In this document: positions 18,099 through 36,681 of the stretch, piece by piece
Layout of the letters: each line of letters starts with the position of its first letter
Position numbering within the stretch: position 1 is the first letter of the stretch
Notes under the pieces: model-generated
Told to the model about the DNA's origin: nothing
Databases searched by the model: none
The model's input: only the letters and a program-made list of their open reading frames with translations
Position numbers and translations under genes: made by a program
Assembly: GCA_026196955.1 (NCBI GenBank)
Contig: JAPHTO010000037.1
Span: forward strand, 1-64,000
Direction: 5' to 3'
DNA from: Colwellia sp.
GTDB taxonomy: Bacteria > Pseudomonadota > Gammaproteobacteria > Enterobacterales > Alteromonadaceae
Length of the DNA: 64,000 nucleotides

Positions 18099-19187
18099 TT
18101 AAATAGATATCACTTCACCATGTTTCACGTGAAACACCTTATATTCATTTGAGTTATTTGACTCGATAAAAGGCTGTAACACACTTTCTTCTATTGCCGT
18201 AATTATTACTTGGCAATTTAAAAATTCTATTGCAGATGATAATGCCGTACGCGACTTAATATCTAACTCTGCACCAATATCATCTATTAATAAAATTGGT
18301 TTTACTCGATTAACTTTTGCAATCAATTTTGCTTGTGCAAAAGTTAACGCCAATAAAAACAACTTTTGTTGCCCTCTTGATAATTGAGTTTCTATTGCTT
18401 GTTTGTCTAATAAAAACTTAACATCAAATTTATGCGCGCCATAAAGGCTATAACCAAAACTTAATTCACGATCTTGGTTAGCAGCTAATACATCGGACAA
18501 TAATCTTTTCTGTGACCAGCCCTGCAAGTATTGAACAGTTACTTTATCGCTAATCGTTGGAAGTAAAATTGATAACCAAACTTTTAGTTCTTCAATTAAA
18601 CTCGCTATATAAACACTTCTTTCCTCAGCTACAATTACAGAATGCTGGCAAAATTGCTCAGTCCAATATGCCAGTGTAACATCATCAGCCTTATTTCTTA
18701 TACATGCATTTCGCTGTTTTAGCACCCGTGAAAAGTTTTTCCACTGACTGGAAAAATTATGTTTCACGTGAAACATCCCCAAATCAGTAAAGCGACGCCT
18801 TTCCTTTGGACCACCAAAAAAAAGTTTAAAACTTTCTGGTGTCACTATCTGAATTGCTATATTTTTTGCTAACTCAGATAAACGAGCATGACGTTCACCA
18901 TCAATCTTTATAATTGTTGTCCCGGATGTAGTATCACGGCTTAATCCAAGCTGACTTCCTCTTCCATCCTTTACGCTAACAACAAACTCTTTTTGCTCGT
19001 AACGCACCAAGCTGTCAGTTTTGCTGGTTCTAAATGATTTACCATGCCCCAAATAAAATAATGCTTCAAGTAAACTGCTTTTACCGCTACCGTTATCTCC
19101 AACAAAGAAATTAAGTGCTGGATTAAAGTCTATGGTTTTAGGGCTCAAATTTCTAAAATGTTGAGTGGTAAGCCGAGCTACTGTCAT
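18099..19187 (-). CDS. recF: DNA replication and repair protein RecF
   Basis: Walker A FVGDNGSGKSSLLEAL; LLIDDIGAELD; between dnaN and gyrB. Confidence 0.97.
   Translation of the reverse strand: MTVARLTTQHFRNLSPKTIDFNPALNFFVGDNGSGKSSLLEALFYLGHGKSFRTSKTDSLVRYEQKEFVVSVKDGRGSQLGLSRDTTSGTTIIKIDGERHARLSELAKNIAIQIVTPESFKLFFGGPKERRRFTDLGMFHVKHNFSSQWKNFSRVLKQRNACIRNKADDVTLAYWTEQFCQHSVIVAEERSVYIASLIEELKVWLSILLPTISDKVTVQYLQGWSQKRLLSDVLAANQDRELSFGYSLYGAHKFDVKFLLDKQAIETQLSRGQQKLFLLALTFAQAKLIAKVNRVKPILLIDDIGAELDIKSRTALSSAIEFLNCQVIITAIEESVLQPFIESNNSNEYKVFHVKHGEVISI
18121..18136. promoter_or_regulatory. parS: parS centromere-like site (perfect 16-bp palindrome) within recF 3' end
   Basis: TGTTTCACGTGAAACA, matching the canonical ParB-binding consensus; parB is at 35785 in the same window. 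Confidence 0.93.
18760..18775. promoter_or_regulatory. parS: parS centromere-like site (perfect 16-bp palindrome) within recF
   Basis: TGTTTCACGTGAAACA, extended to the 18-bp palindrome ATGTTTCACGTGAAACAT. Confidence 0.93.
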
Positions 19188-21805: not shown

Positions 21806-22267
21806 GGGAAAGTGAACTTATCTGCTTGCTAATAATATCTAACTTTTATAACAAGTGAATGAAAAAAGAAAAGATAGCGAATATATAAAATACACGTTAA
21901 CACGTAATGTATAAAACTAATTTATCAGATGACGCAAGCGGAAATTTTTATTATGTAGTGCCATTATCTCTATACTTATCCACAAGTGCAATATTGACTT
22001 TTAACAATTCTCAATTATTTTTATAAAAAATAAGCTAACACCTTGTAAATTTGGCATATTACCTACTTATTTATATTAAATTGATGCTAAAAAATGATTA
22101 ATAGTTTATTTAATTATTAAAAGATCTCTCCAAAGATCCACACCTTTATAAACAAAAAAGAAGCGCCTTTTTTAAAACTGTGGATATCAATGATCATTTT
22201 ATGAGATCTTTACGACGATCTGAACGATCGCTACAGGATCATTTAATAAATAAGCCGAGATAATATA
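21806..22267. promoter_or_regulatory. dnaA-rpmH intergenic regulatory region with DnaA boxes and GATC cluster
   Basis: DnaA box TTATCCACA at 21976-21984; near-consensus TGTGGATAT at 22179-22187; seven GATC sites within about 22123-22238; AT-rich. Confidence 0.75.
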
Positions 22268-22296
22268 TTGACAATAGCTTAGTTAAGCTTTAGAAT
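22268..22296 (+). promoter_or_regulatory. Predicted sigma70 promoter for rpmH-rnpA
   Basis: TTGACA (22268-22273), 17-bp spacer, TAGAAT (22291-22296). Confidence 0.75.
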
Positions 22297-22371
22297 TCGG
22301 CCTCATTTTTTAGACCAGTGTGCTCATAACGGCTGTTTTGCCAGGGCAACAACAACCGACGGATTAGCGTA

Positions 22372-22506
22372 ATGAAAAGAACATTTCAACCTAGCGTATT
22401 AAAGCGTAAGCGTAACCACGGATTCCGTGCTCGTATGGCAACTAAGAATGGCCGTGCTGTTATAGCTCGTCGCCGTGCTAAAGGCCGTGCTAGCCTTAGC
22501 GCTTAA
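22372..22506 (+). CDS. rpmH: 50S ribosomal protein L34
   Basis: [44 protein letters not shown] (44 aa), missing from the ORF track because of its length. Confidence 0.99.
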
Positions 22507-22541
22507 TCTTAACTCCTTTTCTTTTAAGAAATAGAATTAAG

Positions 22542-26469: not shown

Positions 26470-26493
26470 AACAAAAATCCTACCTGATCAAAT

Positions 26494-26517
26494 CACGCTT
26501 TCCCCCTAGAAAGCGTG
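26494..26517 (+). terminator. Hairpin downstream of mnmE
   Basis: cacgctttc-ccccta-gaaagcgtg perfect 9-bp stem; weak T-tract. Confidence 0.45.
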
Positions 26518-26652
26518 AACTTTCCTACTTTCTACACTTTTATAAAAACACTGCTGATAAGTATTTGAAATATTGTGTAAATAAATATAGATTAATGATG
26601 AAAATAAGCTTATTTCCCGTCTAATAAGCTGTTAGTTTTAAAAGGAAGTGTT

Positions 26653-27330
26653 GTGCAACGTGATACAAAAGTAGCTAAGAATGTATCTGAGTATTTAAAT
26701 ATATTAAAAGAAAGTGGCTATATGAGTCTTTATCGAGGGCAAGAAGAAGATTGGCCTTTAATACCCTCAATAGGCAGAGTAAATGTTGTCGTTATAGAGG
26801 GATTACTTGAAGTCGAACAAAATATACTCGAAAGCCTAAAACTTCTTGGTCACCCTTTTTTTAAAGGTGATATTACAAATGAAAGTGACTGGATTTTACA
26901 TGCTCAACATTATGGATTGCCTTCAAGACTACTAGACTTTACAACTAATCCTCTAAAAGCCCTTTACTTTGCGGTTGAGTCAAATTCTGAATCAGATGGA
27001 GTTGTTTTTACAATAGATGAATATGGAGATGCGGAATTTCCATCATTAGAAATAAAGTCTGCGTGCTTTTACCGTCCAACGCATATTAATTCAAGGATTA
27101 CAGCACAAGAAAGTGCTTTTGCTGTTTTCCCTTTGGAATATAGTACGTTAGAAATGAAACCATTAGACGAATATACACAGCGTTCCTTAACTCAGAAAGT
27201 TATAATTCCAGCAGAGTCCAAAGAAGATATTAAAAAGGATTTAAGCATCTTGGGAATTAATAAAATGAGTATATATCCAGGTATTGAAGGGATTGTAGAA
27301 AAAATAAAAGAAGAGTGTGGTTTAACTTAA
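26653..27330 (+). CDS. FRG-domain protein
   Basis: GTG start; YMSLYRGQEEDWPLIPSIGR...HAQHYGLPSRLLDFTTNPLKALYFAVE, characteristic FRG domain. Confidence 0.85.
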   Translation: MQRDTKVAKNVSEYLNILKESGYMSLYRGQEEDWPLIPSIGRVNVVVIEGLLEVEQNILESLKLLGHPFFKGDITNESDWILHAQHYGLPSRLLDFTTNPLKALYFAVESNSESDGVVFTIDEYGDAEFPSLEIKSACFYRPTHINSRITAQESAFAVFPLEYSTLEMKPLDEYTQRSLTQKVIIPAESKEDIKKDLSILGINKMSIYPGIEGIVEKIKEECGLT

Positions 27331-27428
27331 AACTTACAAGTCACTCAAAAGGACAAAAAAACAGTTGGCTTTTGCACCTTCGTCGCTGATTTTAGCCAAA
27401 ATTTTTACCGCTTAACGAGGCGTCATAC
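27322..27428 (+). repeat. attC-like recombination site 1
   Basis: acttacaagtcactcaaaagg...cagttggcttttgcaccttcgtcgctgattttagccaaaa...cttaacgaggcgtcatac; internal ttggct/agccaa stem; one substitution in the GTTRRRY core. Confidence 0.65.
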
Positions 27429-27445
27429 ACAAGGAAGATAAGAGT

Positions 27446-27934
27446 TTGAGCAATATTTTAATCTTTGGTAATTCAAGTTCCGGTAAATCAACACTTGCAA
27501 AGAGCATGTGTAAAGATCAAGGCCTAGCGCATTTAGATTTAGATTCGTTTGCATGGGAAGCAACAACTCCCCCTCGAAGAAAAAGTTTAAACGCTTCTAA
27601 AAAAGACATTGATAATTTTATCAAAACAAATGATTCTTGGGTTATCGAGGGTTGTTATACTGACTTGCTAGAGCTAGCCAAATCACATTCCAGTGAAATA
27701 ATATTTATGAACTTACCAATTGAAGAGTGTATTTCAAATGCAAAATCTCGCCCTTGGGAACCCCATAAGTATAAATCAAAGCAAGCTCAAGACGAAAACT
27801 TGGAAATGTTAATTGACTGGATATGCCAATATAAACAAAGAGATGACACTTTCTCAATGGTTGCGCATCAAAATTTCTATAATAATTACATCGGTAAAAA
27901 ACGAATAATAAACAGTAATATAAAGTGCATATAG
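27446..27934 (+). CDS. P-loop adenylate/shikimate-kinase-like NTPase
   Basis: TTG start; MSNILIFGNSSSGKSTLAKSMCKDQGLAHLDLDSFAWE; Walker A GNSSSGKST. Confidence 0.75.
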   Translation: MSNILIFGNSSSGKSTLAKSMCKDQGLAHLDLDSFAWEATTPPRRKSLNASKKDIDNFIKTNDSWVIEGCYTDLLELAKSHSSEIIFMNLPIEECISNAKSRPWEPHKYKSKQAQDENLEMLIDWICQYKQRDDTFSMVAHQNFYNNYIGKKRIINSNIKCI

Positions 27935-28026
27935 CAAGACAATTAAGTCGGGCTCGTAACAGTTGGCTCAGTTTCGCTTCATATTTTAGCAAACTATTAA
28001 AGAGCCCCTTAATGGGCGTTAGTTTA
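27929..28026 (+). repeat. attC-like recombination site 2
   Basis: tagcaagacaattaag...agttggctcagtttcgcttcatattttagcaaact...ccttaatgggcgttagtt; imperfect internal stem. Confidence 0.72.
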
Positions 28027-28044
28027 TACAACGGATAGGGTTGA

Positions 28045-28434
28045 ATGAATCCAGATTATACGAAATATACACTTGTAGAGTTGTATGATGTTAAAGATAA
28101 CATTGATAACGAGTCTTATCCCGAACGATATGCTTCACTATTAAATGAGATAAGAAAGCGAGAGATGACCCCTGAGAAGGAACCTGAGCCTCAGAAGCCT
28201 AATAAAAAAAATAAAGCTTACATTGCAAGATTTATAATGCTCCTTTGCATTCCTTTTTTTTCATGGCAATTAATTAATGCATATAAGCATGGTTCGATTC
28301 ATTTCAAAAATGATCATGTATATCACCTTAGTGCACAACCAACAGCGTTTTATGTAGCTGTTTTGATTCATGTGATTTGTCTTTTGATAGCATTACGTAC
28401 AGTGTTTAAAGGTTTGGGACAAAGTAATGCTTAA
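28045..28434 (+). CDS. Hypothetical membrane protein (cassette-borne)
   Basis: 129 aa with two predicted hydrophobic segments; lies between attC-like sites 2 and 3. Confidence 0.65.
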   Translation: MNPDYTKYTLVELYDVKDNIDNESYPERYASLLNEIRKREMTPEKEPEPQKPNKKNKAYIARFIMLLCIPFFSWQLINAYKHGSIHFKNDHVYHLSAQPTAFYVAVLIHVICLLIALRTVFKGLGQSNA

Positions 28435-28527
28435 CAAGAAAATAAACAGAGCCTCAAAACAATTGTTTTTTGCTCCTTCATCACTTATTTTACCAATTAT
28501 TATCAGCCCATTAAACGGGTGTTATGT
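28429..28527 (+). repeat. attC-like recombination site 3
   Basis: gcttaacaag...ttttttgctccttcatcacttattttaccaatt...cccattaaacgggtgttatgtg; shares the central TGCNCCTTCRTCRCT-type segment with site 1. Confidence 0.7.
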
Positions 28528-28554
28528 GTAGCAGAAACCGCTAAGGAGTGATAC

Positions 28555-29031
28555 ATGTCTGATATTATTATCAGAGGCGCAAATTTAAATGACTTGCCGA
28601 CTTTACTTGAGTTTGAGCAGCATATAATAACTGCAGAGCGCCCTTATGATAACCACTTAAAAGATGATCCTATTTCATATTATGATTTGAAGGAGCTCAT
28701 CTTGTCAGAAAAAGCAGAAGTACTTGTCGCTGAAGTATCCAATGAAATAGTCGGCTCTGGATATGCACAAATAAAAGAATCAAAACCATATATGAAGCAT
28801 GATTTACATTCTTATCTAGGTTTCATGTATGTCGCACCTAATTATAGAGGTAAAGGCATTAATAAGTTGATACTCAACGCCCTTCAGGCATGGAGCAAAG
28901 CCCAAAATGTATATCACTGTATTTTAGATGTATATTCAGGTAATCAGCTAGCTATAAGGGCTTACGAAAAAGTAGGATTCAAGAGTAATCTCATTGAAAT
29001 GTGTGTATCTTTAGATGAAACACACACATAA
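28555..29031 (+). CDS. GNAT-family N-acetyltransferase
   Basis: LGFMYVAPNYRGKGINKLILNALQAWSKAQNVYHCILDVYSGNQLAIRAYEKVGFK, acetyl-CoA-binding motif. Confidence 0.92.
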   Translation: MSDIIIRGANLNDLPTLLEFEQHIITAERPYDNHLKDDPISYYDLKELILSEKAEVLVAEVSNEIVGSGYAQIKESKPYMKHDLHSYLGFMYVAPNYRGKGINKLILNALQAWSKAQNVYHCILDVYSGNQLAIRAYEKVGFKSNLIEMCVSLDETHT

Positions 29032-29120
29032 CGAGCAAACTTAATGAAGCTTCTAACCGTTAACTCTATTTCGCTTCACATTTTAATCAGCTGATATTTG
29101 CCCACTATTTGGGCGTTACA
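29027..29120 (+). repeat. attC-like recombination site 4
   Basis: cataacgagc...tctatttcgcttcacattttaatcag...cccactatttgggcgttacac; shares TTTCGCTTCANATTTTA with site 2. Confidence 0.75.
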
Positions 29121-29139
29121 CGCACAAAAAGGGTTCCTA

Positions 29140-29442
29140 ATGAATTTAAAACTTAAGTTAATATTCTCAGCAATAGCTCTTATTTTGACAAATGGCTGTA
29201 CCTCTTATAGTGCAGAAGATTATGGAGATCCTGATGTCAGTAAAAAGGAATCTTCATGTATAAATATGGAGCCAGCTCAAGAGATGAAATGTAAAGAAAG
29301 AGAGCAAAGCTTATTAATCGGCTTAGGTGCTGACAAAGATTGTAATCACCCATATGATTATGAAAGAAACAGATGTAAAAGTGCGCAAGCAAAGCAAAAA
29401 AAGGCGCTTGACGACTCACTTAAAAAGCATACGGATAAATAG
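29140..29442 (+). CDS. Putative small lipoprotein
   Basis: MNLKLKLIFSAIALILTNGCTSYSAEDYG: signal peptide with lipobox-like LTNGC. Confidence 0.65.
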   Translation: MNLKLKLIFSAIALILTNGCTSYSAEDYGDPDVSKKESSCINMEPAQEMKCKEREQSLLIGLGADKDCNHPYDYERNRCKSAQAKQKKALDDSLKKHTDK

Positions 29443-29688
29443 TAGGTGCAGTATGCTTTTTCTTAATAAATTAGCCAATAAGGCGCTCACTTGAGTTTTG
29501 GTTTTGGAGTTCTATAATTTGTTTGTCCTTTGATATTGTTCATTTAATAGGATTAAAACAACAATGCGCAAATTTATAAGCAAAGTGCATTTTACCCCGC
29601 ATTTTTATTAAATGGCATTTTGGTGTAGTGTATTAATAGCAAATATTTAATGGGTATAGATTTTTATCAATAACATGGAGAGTCCTAA

Positions 29689-30027
29689 ATGGATTATTTT
29701 ATAGGTGCATTAAAAAAATATGCGGATTTCAATGGAAGAGCACGCAGAAAAGAATATTGGATGTTCGTCCTTATTTATATGATTATCAACTTTATTTTAG
29801 CTTTACTTGGTATGGATATAATTTCAATAGTTATAGGTCTTGCTCTTTTAATTCCAAGTATCAGCATTGGTACTAGAAGGTTACATGATACAGGCCGTTC
29901 TGGATGGTGGCAGTTAATCTACTTTGTACCACTTATCGGTTTAATCGTAATGCTTGTTTTCTTAGTTCAAGATAGTCATGACGATAACGACTATGGTGTA
30001 AACCCTAAATCTACTGCGTCAGCATAA
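29689..30027 (+). CDS. DUF805 family membrane protein
   Basis: ALKKYADFNGRARRKEYWMFVL...IGTRRLHDTGRSGWWQLIYFVPLIG. Confidence 0.93.
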   Translation: MDYFIGALKKYADFNGRARRKEYWMFVLIYMIINFILALLGMDIISIVIGLALLIPSISIGTRRLHDTGRSGWWQLIYFVPLIGLIVMLVFLVQDSHDDNDYGVNPKSTASA

Positions 30028-30105
30028 AGCCTAAAAAAATGTTTAAAGAACACATAACAAGCTAATTTTTAGGGGGTTATGTGTTTCTCTAAATTGGAGT
30101 TTTTA

Positions 30106-30354
30106 ATGCTAGAATTAAGACCAAATTGCGAGTGTTGTGATAAGGATTTACCACCAGAATCGACGGAAGCTCATATCTGCACATTTGAATGCACTTTTTG
30201 CACAAGTTGTGTTGAAGGGGTTTTAAATAACCAATGCCCTAATTGTGGTGGTAACTTTGTTAGTCGGCCAATTAGACCTAGTGCTGCATTAAAAAAGCAT
30301 CCAGCATCAACTAAACGTATATTAAAAGAACAGGGTTGTTCGCCAACACCATAA
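30106..30354 (+). CDS. DUF1272 family cysteine-rich protein
   Basis: MLELRPNCECCDKDLPPESTEAHICTFECTFCTSCVEGVLNNQCPNCGGNFVSRPIRP. Confidence 0.9.
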   Translation: MLELRPNCECCDKDLPPESTEAHICTFECTFCTSCVEGVLNNQCPNCGGNFVSRPIRPSAALKKHPASTKRILKEQGCSPTP

Positions 30355-30456
30355 TAAAAATATTGTTTTGCTTAAAGCGTATTTCAACATTTAAATAGTC
30401 TTATATTTCATGCCATACTCACTTAAACAGATTATTACTTTTAAATGGGAGATTAC

Positions 30457-30798
30457 ATGAGATACGTCTTCAACCTAGTGCTCATAATAGTTGTATTACT
30501 CAGTGCAATGGCAGGAGTTGCCAAAGTAATGCATACCCCACAAGAAGTAGAATTTCTTCAAAGCTTTGGGTTAAATAATACACATATTAGTATTTTTGGA
30601 GCTGTTCAAATTTTAGGGGCTGCATTGCTTTCTTATAAAAAAATGCGATTATACGGTGCTGTATTAGTGGTTGTAGGGTTCTTTATTTCTGCAGTCTTAA
30701 TTTTTGTTAGTGGTAACACTGGTTTTGCGCTTATTTCGTTACTGCCTGTTGTGTTAACTACTGTTATTATTCAAAAAACGGTTAAATTAAAAAAATAA
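30457..30798 (+). CDS. DoxX-like small membrane protein
   Basis: MRYVFNLVLIIVVLLSAMAGVAKVMHTPQEVEFLQSFGL...GAVQILGAALL; four hydrophobic segments. Confidence 0.65.
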   Translation: MRYVFNLVLIIVVLLSAMAGVAKVMHTPQEVEFLQSFGLNNTHISIFGAVQILGAALLSYKKMRLYGAVLVVVGFFISAVLIFVSGNTGFALISLLPVVLTTVIIQKTVKLKK

Positions 30799-30800
30799 AA

Positions 30801-30871
30801 TAATTAAAGCGGTACAGATAAACGTCACCCTTTCTATTTTACTTCACATTTACTCAATAAAAAGGCGCACT
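30801..30871 (+). repeat. Possible decayed attC-like site
   Basis: tctattttacttcacatttactcaat...aaaaaggcgcac resembles the tctatttcgcttcacattttaatcag...gggcgttac part of site 4. Confidence 0.35.
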
Positions 30872-30872
30872 C

Positions 30873-31223
30873 TTGTATTTATATTTGGGCTATCTTCTCG
30901 TTCAATTTTATCCGTTAATAGTAAAGTTATTTGAAACCAATATTTCAGCTTCATCAATATTGTTTTCAGTTATTGTTGTTTTTATTTGGTCACTTATTCC
31001 TTTTATTGGCTTCGGGTTAGCTAAGTTGCTTAATGCGAACGGTAAGGCGAGTAAACATTTTCTATTTATCTTTGGGTTTGGTATTGGATTAATCGAAAAT
31101 GGTTTGTATTTTTTTGATCTATTAGCTAAAAATCAAAGCTACATTGGTACTTTTATCATTTTCTGTTTATTTTTTATTACCGCTTTTATCACACTAAATA
31201 AAACAGAATTGAGTACTCATTGA
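30873..31223 (+). CDS. Hypothetical small membrane protein
   Basis: TTG start; 116 aa, several hydrophobic helices. Confidence 0.55.
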   Translation: MYLYLGYLLVQFYPLIVKLFETNISASSILFSVIVVFIWSLIPFIGFGLAKLLNANGKASKHFLFIFGFGIGLIENGLYFFDLLAKNQSYIGTFIIFCLFFITAFITLNKTELSTH

Positions 31224-31354
31224 AATAAAATTACTACCTTTTGTTGAACACCCAGCTAGTATCAACCTTAACCCTGTAGACGGGTCAAGTATGGTTAGAA
31301 TAATTTATCCTATTAGGTATACAATGAGCGCTTTATTCATCCATAGATACTTAT

Positions 31355-31822: not shown

Positions 31823-32249
31823 CCTTCTTACCCATAAGTTATTAACAAATCCTCTGTTAGTAAAACTCATCTGTGGATAGTTTGGTGAGTAAACTATTAA
31901 TTTTCTATTATTATTCAGTTATTAGTTTTAGTAATTAATTTCACTGTGGATAAAACAAGGTTTTGATCAGGGCTTATAAGTGACTTGATCAAACTTTGAT
32001 CACAACTTTATCATTTGTTTAACCTTATAAAAAATATAATAAAAAAACACTTACTCACAGCAAATGGCTTCCTTAATAAGTAATAGTAATAAGATCTTTA
32101 TAAAGATCTTTTTATATATTAGAGAGATCGCGCTTAGATCTTTTTACTCATTTGATCGTTTCCCTATTGATAAAAAAGCGCTAAAATACGTCTCCTTATT
32201 TTCGTAAAGCAGTTTGCTTTAACTATTCTTTTTCAAAGGTTATAAATTT
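31823..32249. other. oriC: Probable chromosomal replication origin (oriC)
   Basis: mioC-mnmG intergenic, AT-rich; DnaA box TGTGGATAA 31945-31953 and near-box TGTGGATAG 31872-31880; eight GATC within 31965-32157; GATCT-T-rich 13-mer-like repeats at 32093, 32105, 32137. Confidence 0.82.
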
Positions 32250-34948: not shown

Positions 34949-35770
34949 GTGGGAAAAATAATAGCTGTTGCAAATCAAAAAGGTGGCGTTGGAAAAACAA
35001 CGACAGCCGTCAATTTGGCTGCCTCGTTAGCTGCGACTAAACGTAAAATTTTATTAATTGATCTTGATCCTCAAGGCAATGCCACTATGGCCAGTGGTAT
35101 TGATAAATATGAAGTACCAGCAACTTGTTACGAGTTATTAATTGAAGAAAAACCCGTCGCAGAGGTTGTGCAAACTGAAACCTCAGGTTTATATGACTTA
35201 CTTGCGGCTAATACTGATGTTACGGCTGCAGAAATTAAATTGATGGAAGTTTTTGCGCGCGAGCAACGTTTAAAAACAGCGCTAGCACCCGTTAAAGATT
35301 ACTACGATTTTATCATTATAGACTGCCCGCCTTCACTCAATATGTTAACGGTTAACGCTATGACGGCGGCTGACTCTGTGCTTGTGCCTATGCAGTGTGA
35401 ATATTATGCACTAGAAGGTTTAACGGCCTTAATGGACACTATTTCAAAATTAACATCAGTGGTGAATGGCGATCTTCATATCGAAGGTATTTTACGTACT
35501 ATGTATGATCCGAGAAATCGTTTGGCTAATGATGTCTCTGAGCAATTAAAGCGTCATTTTGGTGATAAAGTTTATCGCAGCGTTATTCCGCGAAATGTAC
35601 GTTTAGCTGAGGCACCTAGTTTTGGCGCTCCTGCCATGTACTATGATAAATCATCTACGGGCGCTAAAGCGTATTTAGCGCTAGCGGGTGAAGTGTTGCG
35701 TAAAAACCCTACCAGCAAAAAAGTGAATAACGAGCAAGACGCTAATCAAAATAAAAGTACTGCACAATAA
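34949..35770 (+). CDS. parA: Chromosome partitioning ATPase ParA/Soj
   Basis: IIAVANQKGGVGKTTTAVNLAASLA; DLDPQGNATMASG; GTG start. Confidence 0.98.
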   Translation: MGKIIAVANQKGGVGKTTTAVNLAASLAATKRKILLIDLDPQGNATMASGIDKYEVPATCYELLIEEKPVAEVVQTETSGLYDLLAANTDVTAAEIKLMEVFAREQRLKTALAPVKDYYDFIIIDCPPSLNMLTVNAMTAADSVLVPMQCEYYALEGLTALMDTISKLTSVVNGDLHIEGILRTMYDPRNRLANDVSEQLKRHFGDKVYRSVIPRNVRLAEAPSFGAPAMYYDKSSTGAKAYLALAGEVLRKNPTSKKVNNEQDANQNKSTAQ

Positions 35771-35784
35771 TTTCAAGGAAACGT

Positions 35785-36681
35785 ATGAGTCCAGCAAAAA
35801 AAAGAGGTTTAGGCAGAGGCCTTGACGCATTACTTACTCCACAAGTTAAAGCTCCTAGTCAAGATACTGAGGGTGAGCCAACAAAACCTAAAGACGGTGA
35901 TTTAAGTAAATTAGCAATTAACTCATTATCACCCGGTAAATACCAACCTCGAAAAGACATGTCTGATGCGGCTCTTGAAGAGTTGTCATTGTCTATTCAA
36001 TCACAAGGTATTATTCAACCTATTGTGGTTAGAGTTATTGGTGAAGATGATGACGGCGAAAGAAGGTATGAAATTATCGCAGGTGAACGTCGTTGGCGTG
36101 CTGCGAAGTTAGCACAATTAACCGAGGTTCCTTGTTTAATTAAAGATGTGCCTGACGAGTCTGCCGTTGCTATTGCCTTGATAGAAAATATTCAGCGTGA
36201 AGATTTAAATGCCATGGAAGAAGCGGTAGCGCTAGAGCGATTACTTACCGAATTTGATTTAACCCATCAAGAAGTTGCTCTTGCGGTCGGAAAATCACGT
36301 ACAACCGTGACTAACCTTTTACGCTTGAATAACTTAAATGAAGAAGTTAAGACCTTTTTAGAAAATGGCGATATTGAAATGGGTCATGCACGTGCTTTAT
36401 TAGCGCTTGCCGACGGTTTACAAGCAGATGCTGCTAGAACCGTGGCTGCTAAAGAGTTGACGGTAAGAGAGACAGAATCACTCATTAAAAAGATACAAAA
36501 CCCGAGCGAAGAAAAGCCCCTAAAAGAAAAAGATCAAACAAGCGTTACTATAGAATCTGATTTAAGCGACAAGCTAGGATTGAAAGTTGCCGTTAATCAT
36601 AATAAAAAAGGCAAAGGTAAGTTGGTCATCTCCTATGCCAATTTAGCTGAGCTTAACGAGTTTATTGCTAAAATAAAATAA
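35785..36681 (+). CDS. parB: Chromosome partitioning protein ParB/Spo0J
   Basis: KKRGLGRGLDALL; IIAGERRWRAAKLA; ALIENIQREDLNAMEEA. Confidence 0.98.
   Translation: MSPAKKRGLGRGLDALLTPQVKAPSQDTEGEPTKPKDGDLSKLAINSLSPGKYQPRKDMSDAALEELSLSIQSQGIIQPIVVRVIGEDDDGERRYEIIAGERRWRAAKLAQLTEVPCLIKDVPDESAVAIALIENIQREDLNAMEEAVALERLLTEFDLTHQEVALAVGKSRTTVTNLLRLNNLNEEVKTFLENGDIEMGHARALLALADGLQADAARTVAAKELTVRETESLIKKIQNPSEEKPLKEKDQTSVTIESDLSDKLGLKVAVNHNKKGKGKLVISYANLAELNEFIAKIK

Follow-up and report, generated by a model that had tools for sequence, protein, structure and literature searches.

Two palindromes in the recF reading frame

What function can be ascribed to two copies of a 16-bp palindrome that lie within the coding region of recF in a Colwellia sp. 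chromosome? The question was examined in a 64,000-nt stretch of DNA from this organism (hereafter the window), in the draft genome from which it derives and in the recF genes of its genus, family and class. The features concerned are the following.

18121-18136, no strand assigned: predicted parS site TGTTTCACGTGAAACA at the 3′ end of recF, coding for (V)FHVKH(G); exact match, site found in 130/130 family recF genes
18760-18775, no strand assigned: predicted parS site TGTTTCACGTGAAACA in the body of recF, coding for (M)FHVKH(N); exact match, site found in 130/130 family recF genes
18099-19187, minus strand: recF, 362 aa, host of both sites; RecF/SMC_N (Pfam), TIGR00611 recF model

Searching the window returned two exact copies of TGTTTCACGTGAAACA, 639 bp apart, both of which are contained in the recF reading frame and share one frame. 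The body site is read in RecF as GMFHVKHNF and the C-terminal site as KVFHVKHGEVISI, which confirmed the coordinates and the common FHVKH frame that a preliminary description of this DNA had given for two perfect palindromes. Both copies have the form expected of a chromosomal parS, a 16-bp palindrome, and agree with the parS consensus at all 16 positions.

The preliminary description had also called for a genome-wide parS search. In the source genome, a 3.97-Mb draft (167 contigs, 95.5% complete) in whose missing sequence a further site may lie, the recF pair proved to be the only exact copies, and neither a third exact copy nor any copy with one mismatch was found. At up to two mismatches, four additional sites appeared, each with two mismatches, a number close to the three that the reversed-pattern control gave at two mismatches. 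Dinucleotide shuffles gave a mean of 0.38 matches even when three mismatches were allowed. Chance occurrence of the pair was ruled out by these shuffles and by the genome-wide search with its reversed-pattern control.

The origin region and the ParB partner

The window contains the usual gene cluster of an origin, with dnaA, dnaN, recF and gyrB on one side and mnmG, rsmG, parA, parB and the atp operon on the opposite side. Four further features of this region are relevant here.

34949-35770, plus strand: parA, partition ATPase; Pfam AAA_31/CbiA; adjoins parB, downstream of mnmG and rsmG
35785-36681, plus strand: parB, predicted binder of both sites; Pfam ParB_N, HTH_ParB and ParB_C; R173/G201 equivalents
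31823-32249, no strand assigned: candidate oriC, the mioC-mnmG gap; one exact and one 1-mismatch DnaA box, many GATC
21806-22541, no strand assigned: alternative candidate oriC, the dnaA-rpmH gap (includes rpmH); one exact and one 1-mismatch DnaA box

The origin is thus a matter of two candidates, the mioC-mnmG gap and the dnaA-rpmH gap. GATC clusters were seen by eye in both, the GC skew switches sign at around 22-23 kb, close to the dnaA-rpmH gap, and the mioC-mnmG gap (31823-32249) resembles E. coli oriC in its DnaA boxes and GATC-rich stretch. The recF sites are about 3 or about 13 kb from the two candidates and hence origin-proximal with either of them, and they share the chromosome with a cognate parA and parB pair 16-18 kb away. 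The earlier statement that parAB lies about 17 kb off across the origin holds whichever candidate is chosen, because both gaps fall between recF and parAB.

Between mnmE and mioC (26470-31354) there is a row of small same-strand genes that encode FRG-domain, AAA, GNAT, DUF805 and DoxX-like proteins and others without a recognised family. Several gaps between them, for example 27935-28044 and 28435-28554, resemble integron attC sites, and a gene-cassette array has likely been inserted here beside the origin.

The ParB encoded in the window matches the Pfam families ParB_N, HTH_ParB and ParB_C and can be aligned with chromosomal ParB proteins of known structure. In the alignment, Arg and Gly occupy the places of Caulobacter R173 and G201, the pair of a parS-reading protein. 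These two residues distinguish parS-binding ParB from Noc and, according to published work, are conserved without exception in ParB (PMC7383237).

The palindrome might nevertheless belong to another DNA-binding protein, such as a transcription factor whose site has a CACGTG core. This core is common among DNA-binding sites, which lends the idea what plausibility it has, but the match to the parS consensus extends over 16/16 positions and a parS-type ParB is encoded nearby. Furthermore, genomes carry one to three such sites in origin-proximal positions, and the named examples of groups that have no ParABS do not carry them. We consider such a coincidental resemblance exceedingly improbable.

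Conservation of the sites and of their codons

The closest named RecF proteins are those of Colwellia (best identity 84%); the scan of named genomes used patterns that included FHVKH and was kept out of all counts. Two exact copies of TGTTTCACGTGAAACA were present in 33 of 39 genomes of the genus, one copy in five and none in one. In each of these six genomes the pattern TGTTYCACGTGRAACM gave two sites, 657-729 bp apart, so that the pair is present in 39/39 once the Y/R variants are allowed. The exact sites were in the recF frame in the loci of 30 relatives from the genus, although these loci had been picked by the site, which may have biased the selection. This bias was avoided in two larger sets, where recF genes were picked by protein similarity (family, 130 loci, a few of which represent the same genome twice) or by the TIGR00611 model (class, 110 loci, aligned together with those of the family) and not by the site. 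All 130 family genes had both sites, 129 of them exactly as TGTTYCACGTGRAACM at both positions. The C-terminal sites matched TGTTYCACGTGRAACA in 130/130 cases, and the body sites in 112; 17 of the other body sites deviated solely at the final base, with C in place of A, and the remaining one was a CAT variant. Together with the codon usage described below, this is the conservation of DNA in relatives that is expected of a parS.

The same conservation could be explained without ParB if RecF needed FHVKH, in which case the 16-mers would be a by-product of the genetic code. The Phe is indeed kept almost everywhere and is followed in the body motif by an aromatic residue or His, and a C-terminal [FY]-x-[VI]-x-x-G is found in RecF of other phyla as well. 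The codons, however, speak against the peptide as the sole cause. In the family, Val in the sites was encoded by GTG in 260/260 cases and His by CAC in 259/260, while elsewhere in these recF genes GTG makes up 20% of Val codons and CAC 29% of His codons. Since the recF sequences are related, these counts are not independent, but the other columns of the same alignment serve as a control, and the Val and His columns of the sites were the four most biased among 57 conserved columns. The class set behaved similarly (GTG in 183/184 FHV motifs vs 42% gene-wide; CAC in 181/184 vs 49%). The codon before the site was always NTG, giving M, L or V. At the same time, residues shift where the DNA pattern tolerates it: Lys and Glu replace each other within the sites via an A/G change accepted by parS, and the fifth residue is restricted to H, Q or P, those codable by CAN or CCN. 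Thus, the peptide varies where the DNA pattern permits and is invariant where the pattern forbids. Lineages without the sites read FHNEP, FYREP, FTVEK or FSLEN in an otherwise intact RecF. The preliminary description had named loss of the palindromes in close relatives that retain the peptide as the result that would tell against it; the opposite was seen, the DNA being kept while the peptide underwent K/E and H/Q changes. The bias to GTG and CAC indicates that the DNA, not the peptide alone, is under selection, and judged from these sequences the DNA of both sites is selected strongly and beyond what the peptide needs. Peptide constraint as the only cause was ruled out by the codon counts, and we regard it as extremely unlikely.

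What RecF itself uses at these positions can be read from genes that have no parS there: FYREP, FQTNA, FHSEP or FHNEP in the body and FTVEK, FRVEE, FSVEH or FQLAD at the C-terminus. The C-terminal copy had been proposed to lie beyond the conserved RecF core, which does not hold, as it overlies a C-terminal motif common to other phyla. RecF examples of Firmicutes, Bacteroidota and Fusobacteria terminate in [FY]-x-[VI]-x-x-G, and because of this the C-terminal site appears to be built on an existing motif; a location outside RecF proper was ruled out by the similar terminal motif of these phyla. As to whether the site shaped the end of the gene, one part of the suggestion stands, as comparison of the sequences indicates that parS has fixed one version of the C-terminal motif, and one part does not, as a similar end motif predates it and occurs in other phyla.

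Distribution and loss of the sites in Gammaproteobacteria

Among the 110 recF genes of the class, 84 had both sites, 20 had one and six had neither (up to two mismatches). Of 370 class genomes, 246 contained the pattern TGTTYCACGTGRAACA; among the pairs listed, many had the recF spacing of 609-630 bp. Named recF genes were taken from a plasmid collection, in which a DNA search for Pseudomonas gave no entry of that genus among the best matches listed. Of the named recF genes, those of Legionella and Acinetobacter have the body site and that of Aeromonas the C-terminal site; those of E. coli, Proteus and Pasteurella have neither. Enterobacteriaceae and Pasteurellaceae have been stated to lack par genes (PMC3909081), and G218, one of the six class genomes that lack the site at both positions, gave no clear chromosomal ParB (best match 79 bits). 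No parS-like site was seen at these recF positions in the non-gammaproteobacterial examples examined.

Some members of the class bear ParB and yet have no site at one or both positions; therefore, the recF location is not obligatory. G304 (L233), whose recF has neither site, carries a single canonical TGTTTCACGTGAAACA about 18 kb from parB, and its centromere site may have moved out of recF. In G287 the C-terminal site is kept and no ParB match was found; the assembly is a fragmented draft and a missing contig is the likely reason. At the C-terminal position, the 3′ end of E. coli recF (L378) reads TGTTTACCGTGGAAAA, three mismatches from parS, and may be what is left of a site that was lost and has decayed. 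Two small genomes, G176 (L271) and G178 (L299), have half-changed recF sites with CACATG or CATGTG cores, possibly intermediates between CACGTG and CATATG.

A paired change was found in G257 (L295; also L315 and L377), in which both recF sites read TGTTTCATATGAAACA and RecF has Met for Val at both. This genome contained no canonical site and no exact TGTTTCATATGAAACA other than the recF two. In the ParB of G257, residue 170, which makes contact with parS (PMC7383237), is Ser; it is Gly in the ParB of the window, in that of Caulobacter and in the 19 others compared. Site and ParB seem to have changed in concert here, which would make G257 a candidate for a switch of centromere specificity, seen in one genome: the search for relatives that share the change returned G257 alone, the sole genome of its order in the collection. 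We give even odds to a wider proposal, namely that the recF pair is the ancestral centromere of Gammaproteobacteria, which has stayed at the same two codon positions since early in the class, was lost together with ParABS and can co-evolve with ParB.

The recF pair as the probable centromere

We concluded, with a probability of roughly 0.93, that both palindromes are parS centromere sites of this chromosome, at which ParB would bind to segregate the origins. The preliminary description had taken recF for the probable local centromere, and this is well supported: recF is very probably the centromere region because of the sequence of the sites, their copy number, their origin-proximal position, the ParA/ParB pair with its parS-type ParB and the conservation at the DNA level. 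Sequence, copy number, position, codon lock, class-wide conservation and presence of a parS-type ParB were observed here, and the binding of ParB, its spreading and its role in segregation in this Colwellia are expected by analogy with the chromosomal ParABS family. By that analogy, ParB, encoded 16-18 kb off on the other side of the origin, would nucleate at both recF sites, load as a CTP-dependent clamp and spread across the recF region, and ParA would move the ParB-parS complexes so that sister origins part. The same 16 bases would also code for F-H-V-[K/E]-[H/Q/P] in RecF, and selection for ParB binding may have fixed the codons and some residues that are dispensable for RecF itself.

Sites bound by ParB could instead serve mainly to tune the dnaA-dnaN-recF-gyrB operon through spreading, and not segregation. 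In P. aeruginosa, excess ParB lowers the expression of genes beside parS1-4, and interference with dnaA-dnaN-recF-gyrB was ascribed by the authors to parS1/parS2 in recF (PMC5521831). However, loss of ParB or parS in that species raised solely genes near the intergenic parS3/parS4, not those at the intragenic parS1/parS2 (PMC5521831), and in Colwellia the recF pair represents the sole parS sites found, so that they must serve segregation if ParABS works. A mainly regulatory role is therefore highly improbable.

If the recF pair is the centromere, it illustrates clearly how one set of bases can serve both a DNA-binding site and a protein over deep time, and lineages without ParABS act as a natural control for the residues that RecF itself needs. 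In many Gammaproteobacteria recF alone would be a simple locator of the probable centromere; conversely, free recoding or exchange of recF would touch segregation.

Comparison with known systems

Noc and its binding site (NBS) resemble the present system in that the protein family and the palindromic site are related. Noc, however, has Q173 and R201 at the key positions, where the window ParB has R and G and is of the parS-reading type (PMC7383237); an assignment to Noc/NBS failed on this point. The ParABS systems of Caulobacter and Bacillus (Spo0J/ParB) share the type of 16-bp palindrome, the ParA and ParB families and origin-proximal sites with Colwellia, in contrast to which the recF genes of the non-gammaproteobacterial examples have no parS-like site at these positions.

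The closest parallel is P. aeruginosa. There, recF holds the parS sites nearest to oriC, at a distance of about 4 kb (PMC3909081), and has been named as the gene that contains parS1 and parS2 (PMC5521831); ParB binds the parS1-4 cluster, which acts as the segregation site (PMC3909081, PMC5521831, PMC5098823, PMC4368675). ParB ChIP-seq and parS mutants have been published (PMC5098823, PMC4368675), including mutations of the intragenic sites that left the protein unchanged (PMC4368675). Both species have two origin-proximal parS in the recF frame, ParA/ParB by the origin and palindromes of the same family (consensus TGTTCCACGTGGAACM). This likeness is based on the published recF placement, and codon positions were compared among the 110 class recF genes, 84 of which share both. 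The species differ in that P. aeruginosa also has parS3 and parS4, both intergenic, along with six weaker sites, whereas in the Colwellia draft the recF pair alone was found, and in that the P. aeruginosa sites were mutated and ParB binding of parS1-4 measured, whereas those of Colwellia are known from sequence. Codon-level quantification across the class was not found in the literature searched, which excluded the 2007 parS survey by Livny and colleagues; that survey may already contain some of the class-wide pattern, and the class-wide codon lock and the paired change in G257 may be new. The recF-embedded parS pair as such is the usual arrangement in the class and was already published for P. 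aeruginosa (PMC3909081, PMC5521831).
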